Shown in pieces: positions 19,058 to 48,786 of a stretch of 51,706 nt of DNA. Each line of letters begins with the position of its first letter. Position 1 is the first letter of the stretch. This DNA is from Mariprofundaceae bacterium (GTDB taxonomy: Bacteria > Pseudomonadota > Zetaproteobacteria > Mariprofundales > Mariprofundaceae): positions 1-51,706 of the forward strand of contig JALUXZ010000156.1 in the NCBI GenBank assembly GCA_027018935.1, read 5' to 3'. The translations under genes and the position numbers were made by a program. The notes below the pieces were generated by a model. It did no database searches, had not been told where the DNA came from, and saw only the letters and a program-made list of their open reading frames with translations.

Positions 19058-20888
19058 TACGCTGAAAATATTACTGGTTCCTTTGCTTCTATGCTTTGTA
19101 TTATTTCAAGGTATTGTATCGGTTTATCAAGGGCTGGATGCGCCAAACTTTTTACATGTTAATGATTCACAATTCATTATCTCCGATAGCCTGACACCAC
19201 CTACTTTTGAGGCAGATAAGGCGGAGCATCGCATATTACCTGATAATTGGTTACGCTCTATGTCAGGATTTGGTGGTAGTGGCTGGTATCGCATGCAAAT
19301 TCCAGCGCAGAATCAAGGTGGACATGTATGGGGTTTGTTTATTCCTCGCGCCAATATGAATGTAGCAGTTTTTCTGAATGGACATGAGTTGGGACATTCA
19401 GGGCACTTTTCAGAGCCAGTGTCTAGAAACTGGGCTCGGCCTTTATATTATACGATTCCAGCAGGGTTGTTATCTGGTAAAATCAATATTTTGCATATAC
19501 ATCTGAAGTCTTACGATGATGAAGCTGGCGGTTTAAGTGAGCTGTTGATTGGTGAACATGATAAGCTGTGGCCGTTGTATCAAATGCGTAACTTTATTCA
19601 GATAGACATCGCGAAGATTACCTTTTTTATGAATATATTTGCGGGTTTTCTGGCTTTGTTTTTATGGCATTTACGACGGCAAGATACGGTCTATGTATGG
19701 TTTTCTGTTATTTGTTTTAGTTCATCGCTTTTTATATTGAATAATTTTTTATTGGAAATTCCAGTATCACGCAATATTTGGCATTTTTCTGTGTATATTG
19801 CTATTGGCTGGTTTGCCTGTTCACTGCTTTTATTTACGCTACATTTTTTACAGAAAAACAATCGCCGCAGGGAACATTTTCTCTTGATATATATGCTTAT
19901 TAGCTCAATCGTTATTTTGCTATGGCAGAATATTTTTGTAGCTTTGGCTTGGCATATTGGCTCGTTGGTGATGGCAAGCTATGCATGTTTATTATTATTT
20001 CGCAGCTGGTTTCAGAGCCAGGAAAGCACTGAATTGGTATTGGCAGTTGCGATGCTTTCTACATTGGCACTAGGTTTTCATGATTGGTATACGCGCTTAA
20101 CTTTGCAACAGTTTTCCTCACCCGTTTTGATGCATTTAGGGCCACCAGTGATGCTTATGGCAATTGCATGGATTTTGATGGTGCGCTTTGTGCGTACGCT
20201 GCAAGAAAATGAGCGTTTTAATGTTGAATTGGAGCATCGTGTTGCAACTGTAAAACAGGCATTAAATGAAGAGCATCAGCGTGTACAAGTGTTGTTGGAA
20301 CAAGAAGCAAAATCAGATGAACGACAGCGTATTATGAAAGATTTGCATGATGGACTGGGGGGCTATTTGATGTCAGCGCATTCCATCGCACGAATACAAG
20401 CTTTGGATGGGGGCATTCAACAATCGTTGAATGATGCCTTGTTTTGGTTGCGTACTTCAATTGATACGCTGGACTCTGAAGATGATCATTTGGAAAGCCT
20501 ATTGGGTACATTTCGCTACCGTATTGAGCCGCAGCTAAAATCCTGCGGTATTCATCTGTTCTGGCATATGGATGATATATCGGGTTATAAAGTATCTTCT
20601 GATTATAAATTACATGTGATTCGTATTGTGCAAGAAGCCATTACGAATGTTATTAAGCATGCGAATGCATCGGAATTATCTATTCATATCCAGCTTCAAG
20701 AAGAAGATGGCATGATGTTTTCTATTAAGGATAATGGTTGCGGTGTATCAGGTGATAAGGTTGGGCATGGGTTGAATAATATGCGTGAACGTATTAAAGA
20801 TCTTGGCGGAACAATGAATATTTTATCATCATTGAGTGGCACATGTTTGTCATTTGTAATCCCTGTTTTAACAGAGCAATCGCATTAA
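19002..20888 (+). CDS. 7TM-DISM-type sensor histidine kinase (HisKA_3)
   Basis: The protein has up to 628 residues. An N-terminal signal anchor is followed by an extracytoplasmic beta-sandwich (about 50-190, with SGFGGSGWYRMQI and HVWGLFIPRANMNVAVFLNG), as in 7TMR-DISMED2 sensors. Around seven transmembrane helices (about 205-400) and a short coiled coil follow. The kinase core has RIMKDLHDGLGGYL (phospho-His in the H box) and an HATPase with ITNVIKHANASE and DNGCGVSGDKVGHGL. The track start (GTG 19002) overlaps the regulator by 56 nt; TTG 19041 is another candidate. Neither has a clear ribosome-binding site, so translation is probably coupled. Confidence 0.9.
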   Translation: MPKLYLRLINWGLLGSVINTLKILLVPLLLCFVLFQGIVSVYQGLDAPNFLHVNDSQFIISDSLTPPTFEADKAEHRILPDNWLRSMSGFGGSGWYRMQIPAQNQGGHVWGLFIPRANMNVAVFLNGHELGHSGHFSEPVSRNWARPLYYTIPAGLLSGKINILHIHLKSYDDEAGGLSELLIGEHDKLWPLYQMRNFIQIDIAKITFFMNIFAGFLALFLWHLRRQDTVYVWFSVICFSSSLFILNNFLLEIPVSRNIWHFSVYIAIGWFACSLLLFTLHFLQKNNRRREHFLLIYMLISSIVILLWQNIFVALAWHIGSLVMASYACLLLFRSWFQSQESTELVLAVAMLSTLALGFHDWYTRLTLQQFSSPVLMHLGPPVMLMAIAWILMVRFVRTLQENERFNVELEHRVATVKQALNEEHQRVQVLLEQEAKSDERQRIMKDLHDGLGGYLMSAHSIARIQALDGGIQQSLNDALFWLRTSIDTLDSEDDHLESLLGTFRYRIEPQLKSCGIHLFWHMDDISGYKVSSDYKLHVIRIVQEAITNVIKHANASELSIHIQLQEEDGMMFSIKDNGCGVSGDKVGHGLNNMRERIKDLGGTMNILSSLSGTCLSFVIPVLTEQSH

Positions 20889-21031
20889 ATGGTGTCTATG
20901 CATCCAAACTCACCAACCCTTGCGTTAGCAAACTTAGCAATAGCGTGCTATTACTTGCGCTTGCCGCCTTGGGGTTGGCAACTTTGAATTGCGTATTCAC
21001 TCATTCAGAGTTAATAAGCGCTTCCTGTAGT
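20882..21031. mobile_element. Element A, degenerate copy (reverse orientation)
   Basis: Reverse-complementing this stretch gives a sequence aligning along its length with the two element-A copies at 39797-39963 and 40277-40442. It shares CCAAGGCGGCAAGCGCAAGT, the AATAGC-GCTATT core and CATAGACACCAT. The termini are eroded: GAGTTAAT survives near 21015, but the outer GGGAGGTGCTG does not. One end lies on the stop codon of the sensor kinase gene. No ORF is encoded, so it is non-autonomous. Confidence 0.8.
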
Positions 21032-24389: not shown

Positions 24390-24404
24390 AAATGAATGGA
24401 ACTA

Positions 24405-24891
24405 GACTCGATTGATTTCATTAAACGTATTTGGATCAGGTCTTACAATGTATTTGGTAAGGCTTGATCCTAAATGCCCTTAGGTATGATGTTGGAGAGA
24501 TAAACTGAAATATACTTTATTGGCGTTGTTCTGTGTATGGGGTGTTTCCTTGCAGGTGAGTGCTGCTGAAGTGCGGACAACGATGCTTGTTTCAGCATTT
24601 ACGCTGCCTTCGGATCGTGTGATGGATATGGTCTTGAATCAGTGGGGTCAGACTCGATTGATTTCATTGAACGTATTTGGATCAGGTCTTGCTATGTATT
24701 TTGTAAGACTTGATCCTAAATGCCCTTAGGTATGATGTTGGAGAGATAAACTGAAATATTTGAAATATACTTTATTGGCGTTGTTCTGTGTATGGGGTGT
24801 TTCCTTGCAGGTGAGTGCTGCTGAAGTGCGGACAAGCATGCTTGTTTCAGCATTTACGCTGCCTTCGGATCGTGTGATGGATATGGTCTTG
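24405..24891 (+). repeat. Tandem duplication of a gene 5' end, about 246-bp period
   Basis: 24405-24637 and 24651-24891 are nearly identical. Each holds the end of a palindromic unit (GACTCGATTGATTTCATT), a leader, a GGAGAG site and the first about 44 codons of the same gene. Differences are scattered single bases plus a 9-bp insertion that duplicates TGAAATATT at the start of copy 2. A GGGGTCA-containing palindromic unit forms the junction. Confidence 0.9.
24505..24729 (+). pseudogene. Truncated upstream copy of the 24760 secreted-protein gene
   Basis: From CTG 24505 this frame reads the same signal peptide and first residues (LLALFCVWGVSLQVSAAEVRT, then MLVSAFTLPSDRVMDMVL) as the gene at 24760. 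At the duplication junction it runs into the palindromic unit (NQWGQTRL) and stops at 24729. It keeps GGAGAG 5 nt before the CTG. It is a dead 5' fragment, although a secreted peptide of about 70 residues could still be made. Confidence 0.8.
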
Positions 24892-25182
24892 ATTTCTGAT
24901 CCTGAAGCGGATGTATATGGCGATGACCCTACGCGCTATTTACCCTCAAGTGCCGCAGGCTGGGGTGCAAGTGAAGAGGATGAAAGATTTAAGAAACGCT
25001 TACTCCAGCAAGTGATACAGTTGCCGCAAGGTATGCCTTATATGATATCCTTTGAGGGCAAGTATAGTCGTTATTTGCGTTTTGTTATATCGGATGAAAC
25101 GGCATTGATTGTTGATGGATATTCCGGTGGCTCTGAAGATTGGATGGCTGATGCGATGGTTATGATTTTGTTGGGTTATTGA
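24760..25182 (+). CDS. Small secreted protein of unknown function
   Basis: The protein has 140 residues from TTG 24760. CTG 24751, 5 nt after GGAGAG, is an in-frame alternative that matches the start equivalent in the truncated copy. A signal peptide ends near VSAAEVRT. The acidic mature part (ISDPEADVYGDDPTRYL, EEDERFKKRLLQQVIQL) ends in a hydrophobic DAMVMILLGY. No family is recognised. The upstream partial copy shows that the locus has rearranged recently. Confidence 0.7.
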   Translation: MKYTLLALFCVWGVSLQVSAAEVRTSMLVSAFTLPSDRVMDMVLISDPEADVYGDDPTRYLPSSAAGWGASEEDERFKKRLLQQVIQLPQGMPYMISFEGKYSRYLRFVISDETALIVDGYSGGSEDWMADAMVMILLGY

Positions 25183-27311: not shown

Positions 27312-27409
27312 GGTTATCTCGCCCTCCAACATTTCTGCGGGCGAATGCTAGAGGGGTAATACTTTCGGGGTATCCCTTGATTAAGGTAGCATAAATATGC
27401 TATACGGTT

Positions 27410-27530
27410 GTAACTATTCAGCTCACCACTGATATTCCCGATAGCGGCGTTGAAAAATGCTCACTTACAGTAGTAAGCTGCGCTTTTCCGCCTTGCTCTC
27501 GAAAATATCAGCGGCAACCTGAATAGTTAC
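27410..27530. mobile_element. Element C, complete copy
   Basis: The 121-bp stretch begins GTAACTATTCAG and ends with its exact reverse complement CTGAATAGTTAC. The inside is an imperfect palindrome around ACTTAC-AGTA-GTAAG with TGATATT/AATATCA further out. Relatives are at 28282, 28412 and 34257. It has no coding capacity and lies between the regulator gene and an SCPU gene. Confidence 0.85.
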
Positions 27531-27559
27531 ATGGCATGTGTAATTAATAATAACTCATC

Positions 27560-28281: not shown

Positions 28282-28402
28282 GTAACTATTCAGCTCACCA
28301 CCGATTCGCCCGATACCTGCGTTAGAAAATGCTCACTTACAGCAGTAAGTTGCGCTTTTCCGCCTTGGTCTCGAACAAATCAGCGGCAATCTGAACATAT
28401 AC
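28282..28402. mobile_element. Element C, copy with one eroded end
   Basis: It starts GTAACTATTCAG and ends CTGAACATATAC, a degenerate version of the expected CTGAATAGTTAC. The interior is closely similar to the copies at 27410 and 34340 (TTAGAAAATGCTCACTTACA, CAGTAAGTTG). Confidence 0.82.
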
Positions 28403-28411
28403 GAACCAATT

Positions 28412-28534
28412 TATAACTATGCAGTTCACCCATCTTTTGCCCTCATGCTGCGTCAAAAGTGCTCGCATACAGGGAGTATGTTGTGCGCTTTTTCCTTGCC
28501 TGTGAATAAAATGCAGGCAACCTGAATAGTTATA
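28412..28534. mobile_element. Element C variant, adjacent copy
   Basis: Its ends are TATAACTATGCAG and CTGAATAGTTATA. The interior differs from the others (CATCTTTTGCCC, CTCGCATACAGGGAGTATG) but keeps the same plan of a central palindrome. It lies 9 bp from the preceding copy, so the two form a pair of about 250 bp in the divergent intergenic region. Confidence 0.75.
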
Positions 28535-34256: not shown

Positions 34257-34484
34257 GTAACTATTCAGCATGCTTCCAAGCCCTTCTCCCATTGAGGGGA
34301 GAAGGTTGGGATGAGGGGTGGTTTTCTTAAACATCAATGTAAAACCATTCACCTCACCACCGATTTTCCCGATACCAGCGTTAGAAAATGCTCACTTACA
34401 GCAGTAAGTTGTGCTTTTCCTCCTCGCCTAAAAGTGCCTACTGTTGGTGGTCTCGAATAAATCAGCGGCAACCTGAACAGATAC
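34257..34484. mobile_element. Element C, composite copy with an inserted REP-like hairpin
   Basis: It starts GTAACTATTCAG (34257-34268) and ends CTGAACAGATAC (34473-34484). About 84 bp after the left end a second, worn left end (GTAAAACCATTCAC) begins an element matching the copy at 28282. The extra DNA contains CCTTCTCCC-ATTGAG-GGGAGAAGG, a 9-bp stem typical of a widespread REP type. The other arm also has about 25 extra bp. It fills most of the 332-bp gap. Confidence 0.75.
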
Positions 34485-39722: not shown

Positions 39723-39744
39723 GCTTTTAACAACCTGTTCTATA

Positions 39745-40074
39745 TAGGGCACCTCGAAAAACCTCGGCACTTCGCCAAACTTGTGTTTTTTACCCTTAGG
39801 GAGGTACTGATTAACTCTGGATGAGTGGATATGCGATTCAAAATCACCAACACCAAGGCAGCAAGCGCAAGCAATAGCCCCGCTATTGCTAAGTTGGCTA
39901 ACGCAGTTGCTGGCGATTTTGGGCGTATAGGCATCATTTATTGAGTTGATTAGCACCTCCCTAGCTGCATTGAATAAAATGGACAATAGCGATGCTATTA
40001 TTCATTTCAGTGCGCTTTGCTATGAGCGAAAATCAACGTCGTTTAACTTGTGCGAGGTTTTTCGAGGTGCCCTA
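39745..40074. mobile_element. Element B, copy interrupted by element A
   Basis: It begins (TA)GGGCACCTCGAAAAACCT and ends with the reverse complement ending GAGGTGCCC(TA). Removing the inserted element A (39797-39963) leaves about 163-165 bp, which aligns end to end with the copy at 48002 read in reverse. The order of events is therefore clear: element B was there first. Confidence 0.88.
39797..39963. mobile_element. Element A, copy nested in element B
   Basis: The ends are TA-GGGAGGTACTGATTAACTC and GAGTTGATTAGCACCTCCC-TA, i.e. terminal inverted repeats of about 19 bp with TA at both sides. The uninterrupted element B at 48 kb has a single TA at the same place (TCCCTAGCGG in reverse), which supports target TA duplication as in IS630/Tc1-mariner-type elements. 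One extra T is present on the left. The copy is 167 bp and non-coding. Confidence 0.88.
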
Positions 40075-40276
40075 TAATAGCATAAATATGCGATACAGCT
40101 TTTTTTAAGCTGTGCCATGATTGGCAGTATGAGTGCATATTCAATAAGGAAAAATGCAAAAAAAATCATAAAGCGCGAGAAAATATTCTGGTGGGGTCTA
40201 TTGTTTTGTTTCAGTCTGTTGCTGGCTTCACAGGTTTCTAGTTTGAGTTTGTGGTTAAATAGTTAAATTTTTAACT
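40075..40276. other. Gap between elements, with one possible small gene
   Basis: Between the element-B copy and the second element-A copy, ACAGCTT-TTTTT-AAGCTGT near 40094-40113 is a 7-bp hairpin. A 49-codon ORF follows and is listed separately. Nothing else was recognised. Confidence 0.4.
40117..40266 (+). CDS. Possible 49-residue membrane protein
   Basis: From ATG 40117 the frame encodes a basic N-terminus (SIRKNAKKIIKREK) and one hydrophobic helix (FWWGLLFCFSLLLASQVSSL), then stops at TAA 40264-40266. The basic-then-helix design is typical of small inner-membrane proteins. No good ribosome-binding site is seen for this ATG or for ATG 40129, and mobile elements lie on both sides, so it may be chance. 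Confidence 0.35.
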   Translation: MIGSMSAYSIRKNAKKIIKREKIFWWGLLFCFSLLLASQVSSLSLWLNS

Positions 40277-40442
40277 TAGGGAGGTGCTGATTAATTCTGG
40301 ATGAGTGGATATGCGATTTAAAATTTTCAATCCCAAGGCGGCAAGCGCAAGTAATAGCAGCGCTATTGTTAAGTTTGCCAACGCCGGCGTTAGTGATTTT
40401 GGGCGCATAGACACCATGCATTGAGTTAATCAGCACTCCTTA
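40277..40442. mobile_element. Element A, copy abutting panD
   Basis: It begins TA-GGGAGGTGCTGATTAATTC and ends GAGTTAATCAGCACTCC-T-TA. The 166 bp share CCAAGGCGGCAAGCGCAAGT and the AATAGC-AGC-GCTATT core with the nested copy. The last TA forms part of the TAA stop codon of panD, read on the minus strand. Confidence 0.88.
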
Positions 40443-40817
40443 GGCAGCTGCCAAACGACCATGGCTAGTATGGCTAATAGCATTGTTTTCATTGAGATAT
40501 ACCAGAGCAGGATTGAAGTGTGTTGCTTCTGCCGCATCTAGCTCTGCATAGGTGCAAATAATCAATAAATCATCAGCCCTAGCCTTGTGTGCTGCTGCGC
40601 CATTCACACCAATTGTGCCTGAGCCGCGTGCTGCGACAATGGCGTAAGTGGTAAAGCGTTCTCCATTACTTACATTATAAATATGCAGTTGTTCAAAGGG
40701 TAAGATATTGGCTGCATCGAGCAAATCTTGGTCAATAGCACAGGAACCTTCATAATCTAATTCGGCATGGGTGACTGTGGCACGGTGTAGTTTGGATTTT
40801 AGCATGGTTAATTTCAT
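40440..40817 (-). CDS. panD: Aspartate 1-decarboxylase PanD
   Basis: The 125-residue proenzyme makes beta-alanine for pantothenate. [25 protein letters not shown] contains the Gly-Ser self-cleavage site (YEG|SC) that creates the pyruvoyl cofactor. [23 protein letters not shown] and [12 protein letters not shown] are typical. The gene overlaps panC by 4 nt, and an element A ends exactly at its stop codon. Confidence 0.97.
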
Positions 40818-41671: not shown

Positions 41672-42462
41672 GGTTGTTTGCCTGCGCGCACGTCATCACA
41701 CCATTGCCCAATGGCTGTTGTAATGCTCTCGCGTAGGTTGGTATAGGCTGGGGCAAAGGGAGGATTCTTTTCAGATAGACCGAGCAAATCATGCCATACT
41801 AATACCTGTCCATCACAATCCTTACCTGCACCAATACCAATACTGGGAATTTCAATGGCTGCGCTGATGCGTGCTGCCAAGTCATCAGGGATACACTCCA
41901 AAACTACAGCTACAGCACCAGCATTACTGACGGCTTGCGCATCTTGAAAGATAATATCGGCAGCTTCATCGCTTTGACCTTGCCTTTTAAAACCGCCAAA
42001 CTTTTTTACAGATTGTGGGGTAAGTCCCAAGTGCGCGACCACAGCAATGCCGCGCTCACTTAAAAACGCAATCGTGGCAGCCATATGTTGCCCGCCTTCA
42101 ATTTTAACCGCATCACAGCCAGTTTGCTGTAATACTTGTGCTGCAGATGCAAAAGCTTGTTCAGGTGATGCTTGATAACTGCCAAAAGGAAGGTCACAGA
42201 CCACCCAAGCTTTATCGCGCCCACGTACCACAGCGGCAGTATGATGAATCATATGTTCAAGGGTAACGGGAATGGTGGAATCAAAGCCTAAAGAAACCAT
42301 GCCCAAAGAATCACCAACTAAAATCACATCCACACCAGCCATTTCAGCCAATGCGGCAGTAGGGGTGTCGTAGGCAGTTAGCCATACTTGTTTGCGCTGG
42401 GCTTGTTTGTCCGCCAGCAATGTACTTGCTGTGGTTCGTTTTTTAATCTGCGTCATATTCAC
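41668..42462 (-). CDS. panB: 3-methyl-2-oxobutanoate hydroxymethyltransferase PanB
   Basis: The 264-residue enzyme makes ketopantoate, the first step to pantothenate. WLTAYDTPTAALAEMAGVDVILVGDSLGMV, VVCDLPFGSYQ, KIEGGQHMA, GLTPQSVKKFGGFK and IPSIGIGAGKDCDGQVLVWHD are the expected blocks. It heads panB-panC-panD; the fourth pathway gene, panE, starts at 51.25 kb. Confidence 0.97.
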   Translation of the reverse strand: MNMTQIKKRTTASTLLADKQAQRKQVWLTAYDTPTAALAEMAGVDVILVGDSLGMVSLGFDSTIPVTLEHMIHHTAAVVRGRDKAWVVCDLPFGSYQASPEQAFASAAQVLQQTGCDAVKIEGGQHMAATIAFLSERGIAVVAHLGLTPQSVKKFGGFKRQGQSDEAADIIFQDAQAVSNAGAVAVVLECIPDDLAARISAAIEIPSIGIGAGKDCDGQVLVWHDLLGLSEKNPPFAPAYTNLRESITTAIGQWCDDVRAGKQP

Positions 42463-42631
42463 CTTTCCGCTTCAGTCTGTTGCCAGTACCGTCTTTTAAG
42501 GATAGCGAAAGGCTAGCGTGTACTGCGATGGTGGTAAATATGTAAGCGTGTTTGCTCTTAATTGATAATCAAACTTACTTGACCATTACATATTAACACG
42601 GCACAGATAAAAACTGTATTCGTCAATATTG

Positions 42632-47947: not shown

Positions 47948-48001
47948 TTTTTCATCATTAAGAATATGAAAGACTGCCCTCTAGCTTAAGGCGGTTTTAG
48001 C

Positions 48002-48168
48002 TAAGGGCACCTCGAAAAACCTTGTGCGAGTCAAGCGCCGTTGATTTTTGTTTATAGCAAGGCGCAATGAGGTGGGTAATAGCAACGCTATTGCCCATTT
48101 TATTCAACGCCGCTAGGGACGAAAAGCACAAGTTTGACGAAGTAGCGAGGTTTTTCGAGGTGCCCCTA
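48002..48168. mobile_element. Element B, uninterrupted copy
   Basis: It begins TA-AGGGCACCTCGAAAAACC and ends GGTTTTTCGAGGTGCCCC-TA. The 167 bp include a central AATAGC-AAC-GCTATT palindrome, a motif also found in element A. The last TA, read on the minus strand, completes the TAG stop codon of the gene at 48166-48786. Non-coding. Confidence 0.88.
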
Positions 48169-48786
48169 AGTGTAAGATAACCACTCAATTTTAGATTCTG
48201 GTACTGTTTTCATGCAATGCTTAAGAATTTTGTCTTGCTTGCGATAATATTTAATTTGATGAAATTGCCCATCATTCATTTCAAAATAAATTTTCTTTGG
48301 GCGATTGAAGGCTGTGAATACTCTCCATTCTTTATCTTCATTAGATGGGCCAATCAAAGAGTCTGCTCGTAACCACATTCCCCAAGCTATAGCAGAAGCA
48401 ATGATAGATCCCCAAGCATCCTTAGTAATTGCAAAGGAAATTATTAGGGTGGTAAGTACGCTAAGCATTCCTCCAAAGTGATTGATTGCTAGAAAGTCAT
48501 CTGGAACTATTGCAATATAGTGTTCATCTTCCTGTATTTCCTTTTCACTAAATAGTGCTTGCTTGATTAGAAGTAGAATTAATAAAAAAATGATAATCCC
48601 AGTTATTCTATCAACATTGACTGATAAGTCGTTGGTAAATTGAAGGAAGGTAATAAAACACCCCCCTAAAAATATCATTAACAAAGTATTTAATTTAATA
48701 ATTGAATGATTTGGAATTTTTGTTAGCCAAAAATCCACCATATACCAAATTCGAAAAAGAGGCTTAAATAGTTTGACCAACTTCAA
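48166..48786 (-). CDS. Hypothetical membrane protein
   Basis: The 206-residue protein has at least four hydrophobic segments (SIIKLNTLLMIFLGGCFITFLQF, ITGIIIFLLILLLIKQAL, FGGMLSVLTTLIISFAI, GSIIASAIAWGMWL). The C-terminal tail of about 60 residues (FTAFNRPKKIYFEMNDGQFHQIKYYRKQDKIL) is cytosolic-looking. The family is not recognised. Its codon use looks more AT-rich than its neighbours, which with the adjoining element B hints at acquired DNA. The stop codon comes from the element. Confidence 0.65.
   Translation of the reverse strand: MKLVKLFKPLFRIWYMVDFWLTKIPNHSIIKLNTLLMIFLGGCFITFLQFTNDLSVNVDRITGIIIFLLILLLIKQALFSEKEIQEDEHYIAIVPDDFLAINHFGGMLSVLTTLIISFAITKDAWGSIIASAIAWGMWLRADSLIGPSNEDKEWRVFTAFNRPKKIYFEMNDGQFHQIKYYRKQDKILKHCMKTVPESKIEWLSYT

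Follow-up and report, generated by a model that had tools for sequence, protein, structure and literature searches.

Two families of miniature elements, probably of IS5 type, are reciprocally nested in a Mariprofundaceae genome

Correia elements are an example of MITEs belonging to the IS630/Tc1-mariner group. Such MITEs are short, palindromic and present in high copy number, with TA at their flanks. The first of two families considered here, called A, resembles them in all of these respects. However, A and the second family, B, differ from IS630/Tc1-mariner MITEs in having 4-bp target site duplications (TSDs) and a link to IS5-family transposases. A closer comparison for A is IS5 of E. coli. 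This element is reported to duplicate a 4-bp site, for example CTAA or CTAG, and to insert with a bias to intergenic DNA (PMC11677980). Both IS5 and A have ends that begin GGA(A)GGTGC, and the CTAG- or CTAA-type duplications of IS5 recur with A and with an insertion sequence (IS) resident in the same genome; the bias to intergenic DNA is shared too. Note that A is non-autonomous, a foldback element of 161 bp, while the resident IS spans 1157 bp; the latter is likened to E. coli IS5 through its ends, TSD and profile matches. For B, the closest counterpart is an IS of Methylomonas fluvii, which has the same ends (GGGNACCTCGAAAAACC) and likewise duplicates 4 bp (CCTT). In contrast to B, which encodes no transposase, the Methylomonas IS encodes a protein of 344 aa that has no close homologue in the assembly of our organism (G000). 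Among the matches listed, MITEs of Halothiobacillus, Massilia, Nitrotoga, Thiobacillaceae and others also have the inverted ends GGGCACCTCGAAAAACC of B; they are about 100-250 bp long, many have a 4-bp TSD, and they differ from zetaproteobacterial B in interior sequence. Among the papers searched, none dealt with nested IS5 MITEs or contained the exact end sequences of A and B.

We analysed a stretch of 51,706 nucleotides, hereafter the window, in which an A element lies inside a B element. The features are as follows.

20883..21025 (approximate), minus strand: degenerate third A-like copy, about 79-84% identity over its parts
39743..39746, unstranded: left TSD of the outer B, TATA, 4 bp
39747..40072, unstranded: outer B-family MITE, 326 bp with the nested A and 161 bp without; inverted ends GGGCACCTCGAAAAACCT
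39796..39799, unstranded: left TSD of the nested A, TTAG, one base off CTAG
39800..39960, plus strand: nested A-family MITE, 161 bp; ends GGAGGTRCTGATTAA; putative IS5-group type
39961..39964, unstranded: right TSD of the nested A, CTAG, 4 bp
40073..40076, unstranded: right TSD of the outer B, TATA, 4 bp
40280..40439, plus strand: second A copy, 160 bp; TSD TTAG/TTAG at 40276-40279 and 40440-40443
40440-40817, minus strand: panD, named from its sequence
48005..48165, unstranded: intact B copy, CTAG uninterrupted at 48113; TSD CTAA/CTAA at 48001-48004 and 48166-48169

The nest, already recognised in the initial annotation, is real: the limits and ends of both elements, and an intact B copy, are all present. 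Both ends of the outer B match GGGCACCTCGAAAAACCT perfectly over 18 bp, in inverted orientation; this 18-mer is found four times in the window (0.01 expected by chance). The nested A has the termini GGAGGTACTGATTAA and GGAGGTGCTAATCAA. Elsewhere, at C31, C93, C186 and C214, nested A is surrounded by a perfect CTAG/CTAG. Both elements have the characters of MITEs, being short (161 bp each), present in many copies and bounded by inverted ends and TSDs, with no transposase gene. As foldback MITEs would, single strands of each fold along their full length; the B copy at 48005-48165 gives z = -11.5 and the A copy at 40279-40441 gives z = -7.1. Searched against Rfam, neither element matched a known RNA family. 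At the hairpin tip, A (39800-39960) and B (48005-48165) have a similar AATAGC-NNN-GCTATT core, the elements being otherwise unrelated.

Since A sits inside B, B came first at this locus, as the initial annotation proposed. The intact B, there taken as the pre-insertion state, does not have that role. On the minus strand, it reads ...GTCCCTAGCGG... at the point matching the insertion site of A, but it is a paralogous copy that shares 82.6% identity with the B body of the nest, and closer kin of that body exist elsewhere (B copies up to 94% identical). The true pre-insertion state is found in three genomes of the same genus (G001, G006 and G009), where the orthologous locus is without any insert. 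The same two genes are separated by 717 bp here and by 224 bp in G009, and once the inserts are removed the flanks align with those of the relatives.

Other features of the region were also apparent. The second A copy (40276-40443 with its TSD) hit the panD stop codon, and the duplicated TTAG restores the stop. Between the response-regulator gene and panD is a small ORF of 45 aa (40129-40266, plus strand), with a likely membrane segment MSAYSIRKNAKKIIKREKIFWWGLLFCFSLLLASQVSSLSLWLNS; its length and frame are kept in G001, G006 and G009. A Zeta-pan RNA (RF03111, 57.4 bits) lies at 42454-42504 on the minus strand, close to the pan gene cluster, and points to a zetaproteobacterial host. Further away, repeats of about 120 bp with inverted ends TGTAACTATTCAG, at 27409-27531, 28282-28402, 28415-28533 and 34341-34461, form a third short family that is probably another MITE. 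Direct repeats of 123-132 nt, spaced by 246-255 nt and 91-98% identical, occupy 24391-24892.

The G000 assembly comprises 2.57 Mb in 274 contigs, with 7.8% contamination. A genome-wide search for copies of A and B, proposed in the initial annotation, returned 57+57 ends of A and 87+90 ends of B with up to two mismatches; at the same threshold, a reversed-pattern control returned 0. Some 40 places with A and over 60 copies of B were inspected, in targeted stretches of the genome. At the stringency applied, A is largely limited to G000. Within the genus, B is also common in one other species (G002, 20+20 ends), where we found B MITEs only and no autonomous B element, and an exact-end search found no B ends in 39 other relatives. 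Near the orthologous response-regulator gene, G002 (C106, L437) has an A-like MITE that is flanked by CTAG and whose ends, GGGAAGCGCTGATTAA, are divergent. Internally deleted forms of B, 59 bp long and retaining both ends, occur in G000 at C123 (L147) and C205 (L074). At C123 the flanks are ATAT/ATAT, which suggests that very short forms of B are still mobile.

A full-length IS with A ends is present at C6:3671-4825, as a span of 1157 bp with CTAG on either side. It encodes a transposase of 318 aa that matches, in Pfam, DDE_Tnp_1 (PF01609, 103 bits) and DUF772. In NCBIfam, the protein falls in the IS5 family (NF033581, 333 bits against a cut-off of 140; IS5_4 model). Hence, where an IS630-family element with matching ends had been anticipated, the IS carrying A ends proved to be of the IS5 family. 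Truncated ends of this IS are seen at contig borders in C36, C93 and C239, as a multicopy IS would give in a short-read assembly. The true end of A begins GGAGGTGC, while E. coli IS5 begins GGAAGGTGC and IS5A has the ends GGAAGGTGCGAATAAG and GGAAGGTGCGAACAAG. IS5-like terminal repeats (GGAAGGTGCGAA) are found in A and its IS as GGAGGTGCTGATTAA and GGAAGTGCTGATTAA. We place the start of A at GGAGG, and assign the preceding base to the TSD, because a base other than G at that position is usually mirrored in the other flank. Thus, the outermost base covaries with the opposite flank in CTAA/CTAA (four times), CTAT/CTAT and TTAA/TTAA. So delimited, the TSD of A is a 4-bp YTAR, usually CTAG; it is exact in 20 of 35 copies, and most of the remainder have one mismatch. 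The TA flanking A, initially read as a TA duplication, is the centre of this tetramer, and the ends of A match a transposase that is not confined to TA. On these grounds, A appears to be a non-autonomous MITE of the IS5 family, IS5 group.

The TSD of B is also 4 bp, and is exact in 45 of 58 copies. The consensus is TWYA, inside a weak ACTATAGT palindrome; the duplications are AT-rich and often lack a central TA. About 85,000 species genomes were scanned for B ends, which, among the matches listed, are widespread in Beta- and Gammaproteobacteria, mostly in MITEs of 100-250 bp. The matches listed include at least one complete IS with B ends, the 1245-bp element of M. fluvii (L275:5636-6880, CCTT duplicated), whose 344-aa transposase is of the IS5 family (NF033581, 285 bits). 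No B-ended transposase was found in G000, where the Methylomonas protein finds its best match in the A transposase (29% identity). Identity between the A and Methylomonas transposases is 27%, placing the A and B MITE families on different branches. A PF13586 match on C23 was rejected as a candidate B transposase, since it is a fragment of 127 aa and has no relation to the B ends. At C46 and C70, the sequence inside a single B end is not that of a MITE, and it holds no transposase. Judged by the likeness of ends and TSD in other genomes, the mover of B was most likely an IS5-family transposase, lost or unassembled in G000.

We consider it very likely that A and B are two unrelated, non-autonomous IS5-family MITE families, with A moved by the C6 IS, B by another IS5-family transposase, and B preceding A at this locus. 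The resident IS5-group IS would mobilise A in trans, cutting at YTAR, with CTAG preferred, and duplicating four bases. Similarly, a separate IS5-family transposase, now absent or unassembled, would have moved B to AT-rich sites (TATA, TTTA, TACA or TTAA), with a 4-bp TSD. Mobilisation of A in trans, and the identity of the B transposase, are what we infer from sequence comparison. At the locus in the window, B would have arrived first, at a TATA-type site lying in the space that separates panD from the histidine-kinase/response-regulator gene. A would then have entered this B copy at its only internal CTAG, and one point change would leave TTAG/CTAG around A.

The nest is not an isolated case. 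A occupies the same internal CTAG of B in about 14 loci, some seen from one side only (C1, C31, C51, C70, C93, C156, C161, C174, C186, C214, C219, C222, C233 and C271). The orientation of the nested A is uniform in all except the window copy (13:1). Conversely, B is found inside A, at one TTAA and in both orientations, at 5 loci. At 4 further loci A abuts a B end, where the terminal C of B, together with its TSD, mostly forms a YTAR-like site. The fuzzy nest calls L003, L165 and L166 were left out, their flank matches being attributed to chance. The insertions of B into A, and of A beside B ends, indicate that the families were active over overlapping periods. Note that because nesting occurs in both directions, the window nest orders events at its own locus only. 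Hence, the order of invasion initially drawn from it stands for this locus, B then A, and does not extend to a single order for the two families.

Insertions of A into B number 13-14, whereas 1.3-1.6 would be expected if all CTAG sites are counted (P about 1e-9); the CTAG density behind this and the following expectation was extrapolated from one window. If insertions persist solely in non-coding DNA, only non-coding CTAG sites count and the expectation rises to 4-7 (P about 0.0002-0.01). Most of the excess is explained by B offering expendable CTAG sites. A modest real preference of A for B is possible. We regard it as unlikely, though, that B is a selected landing pad, with the A transposase actively preferring the sequence around its CTAG beyond availability. 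The raw excess fits such a scheme, as does the 13:1 orientation bias, which survival in expendable DNA leaves unexplained; against it, survival in expendable DNA covers most of the excess. Quite unlikely, in our estimation, is a reciprocal safe-haven pair, in which each MITE carries a site preferred by the transposase of the other (CTAG in B, TTAA in A), the orientation bias of A reflects recognition of the sequence flanking the site in B, and amplification of each family raises that of the other.

It is very unlikely that an A-in-B composite arose once and then spread, by means of the B ends, as one larger MITE. The identical nesting point and near-uniform orientation would follow from this, and the outer B duplications are intact in the composites at C93, C186, C156 and C214. 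However, A is reversed in the window copy. Furthermore, with the insert removed, the nested B bodies do not have one another as nearest relatives but various empty B copies (that of C139 for C93, 98.1%; that of C39 for C214, 98.7%), and nested A bodies are spread over several A sub-lineages. These different lineages favour repeated entry of A into B. Finally, the initial assignment of A and B to IS630/Tc1-mariner MITEs with a 2-bp TA duplication is scarcely credible: TA does flank A in 26 of 35 copies, if the terminal G is counted within the element, but the IS with A ends is of the IS5 family, bases beyond the TA are duplicated too, and the 4-bp TSD of B often has no central TA.

Taken with repeated entry of A into B, the nest is an ordinary, well-documented case of IS5-family MITEs, in which the reciprocal nesting is unusually clear. 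The family assignment is corrected from IS630 to IS5, and the zetaproteobacteria gain two high-copy MITE families, one with a probable resident mover. The genome also holds a clean record of MITE families inserting repeatedly into each other. This record could help to date transposition waves, and to gauge whether apparent hotspots reflect tolerated sites or true preference.
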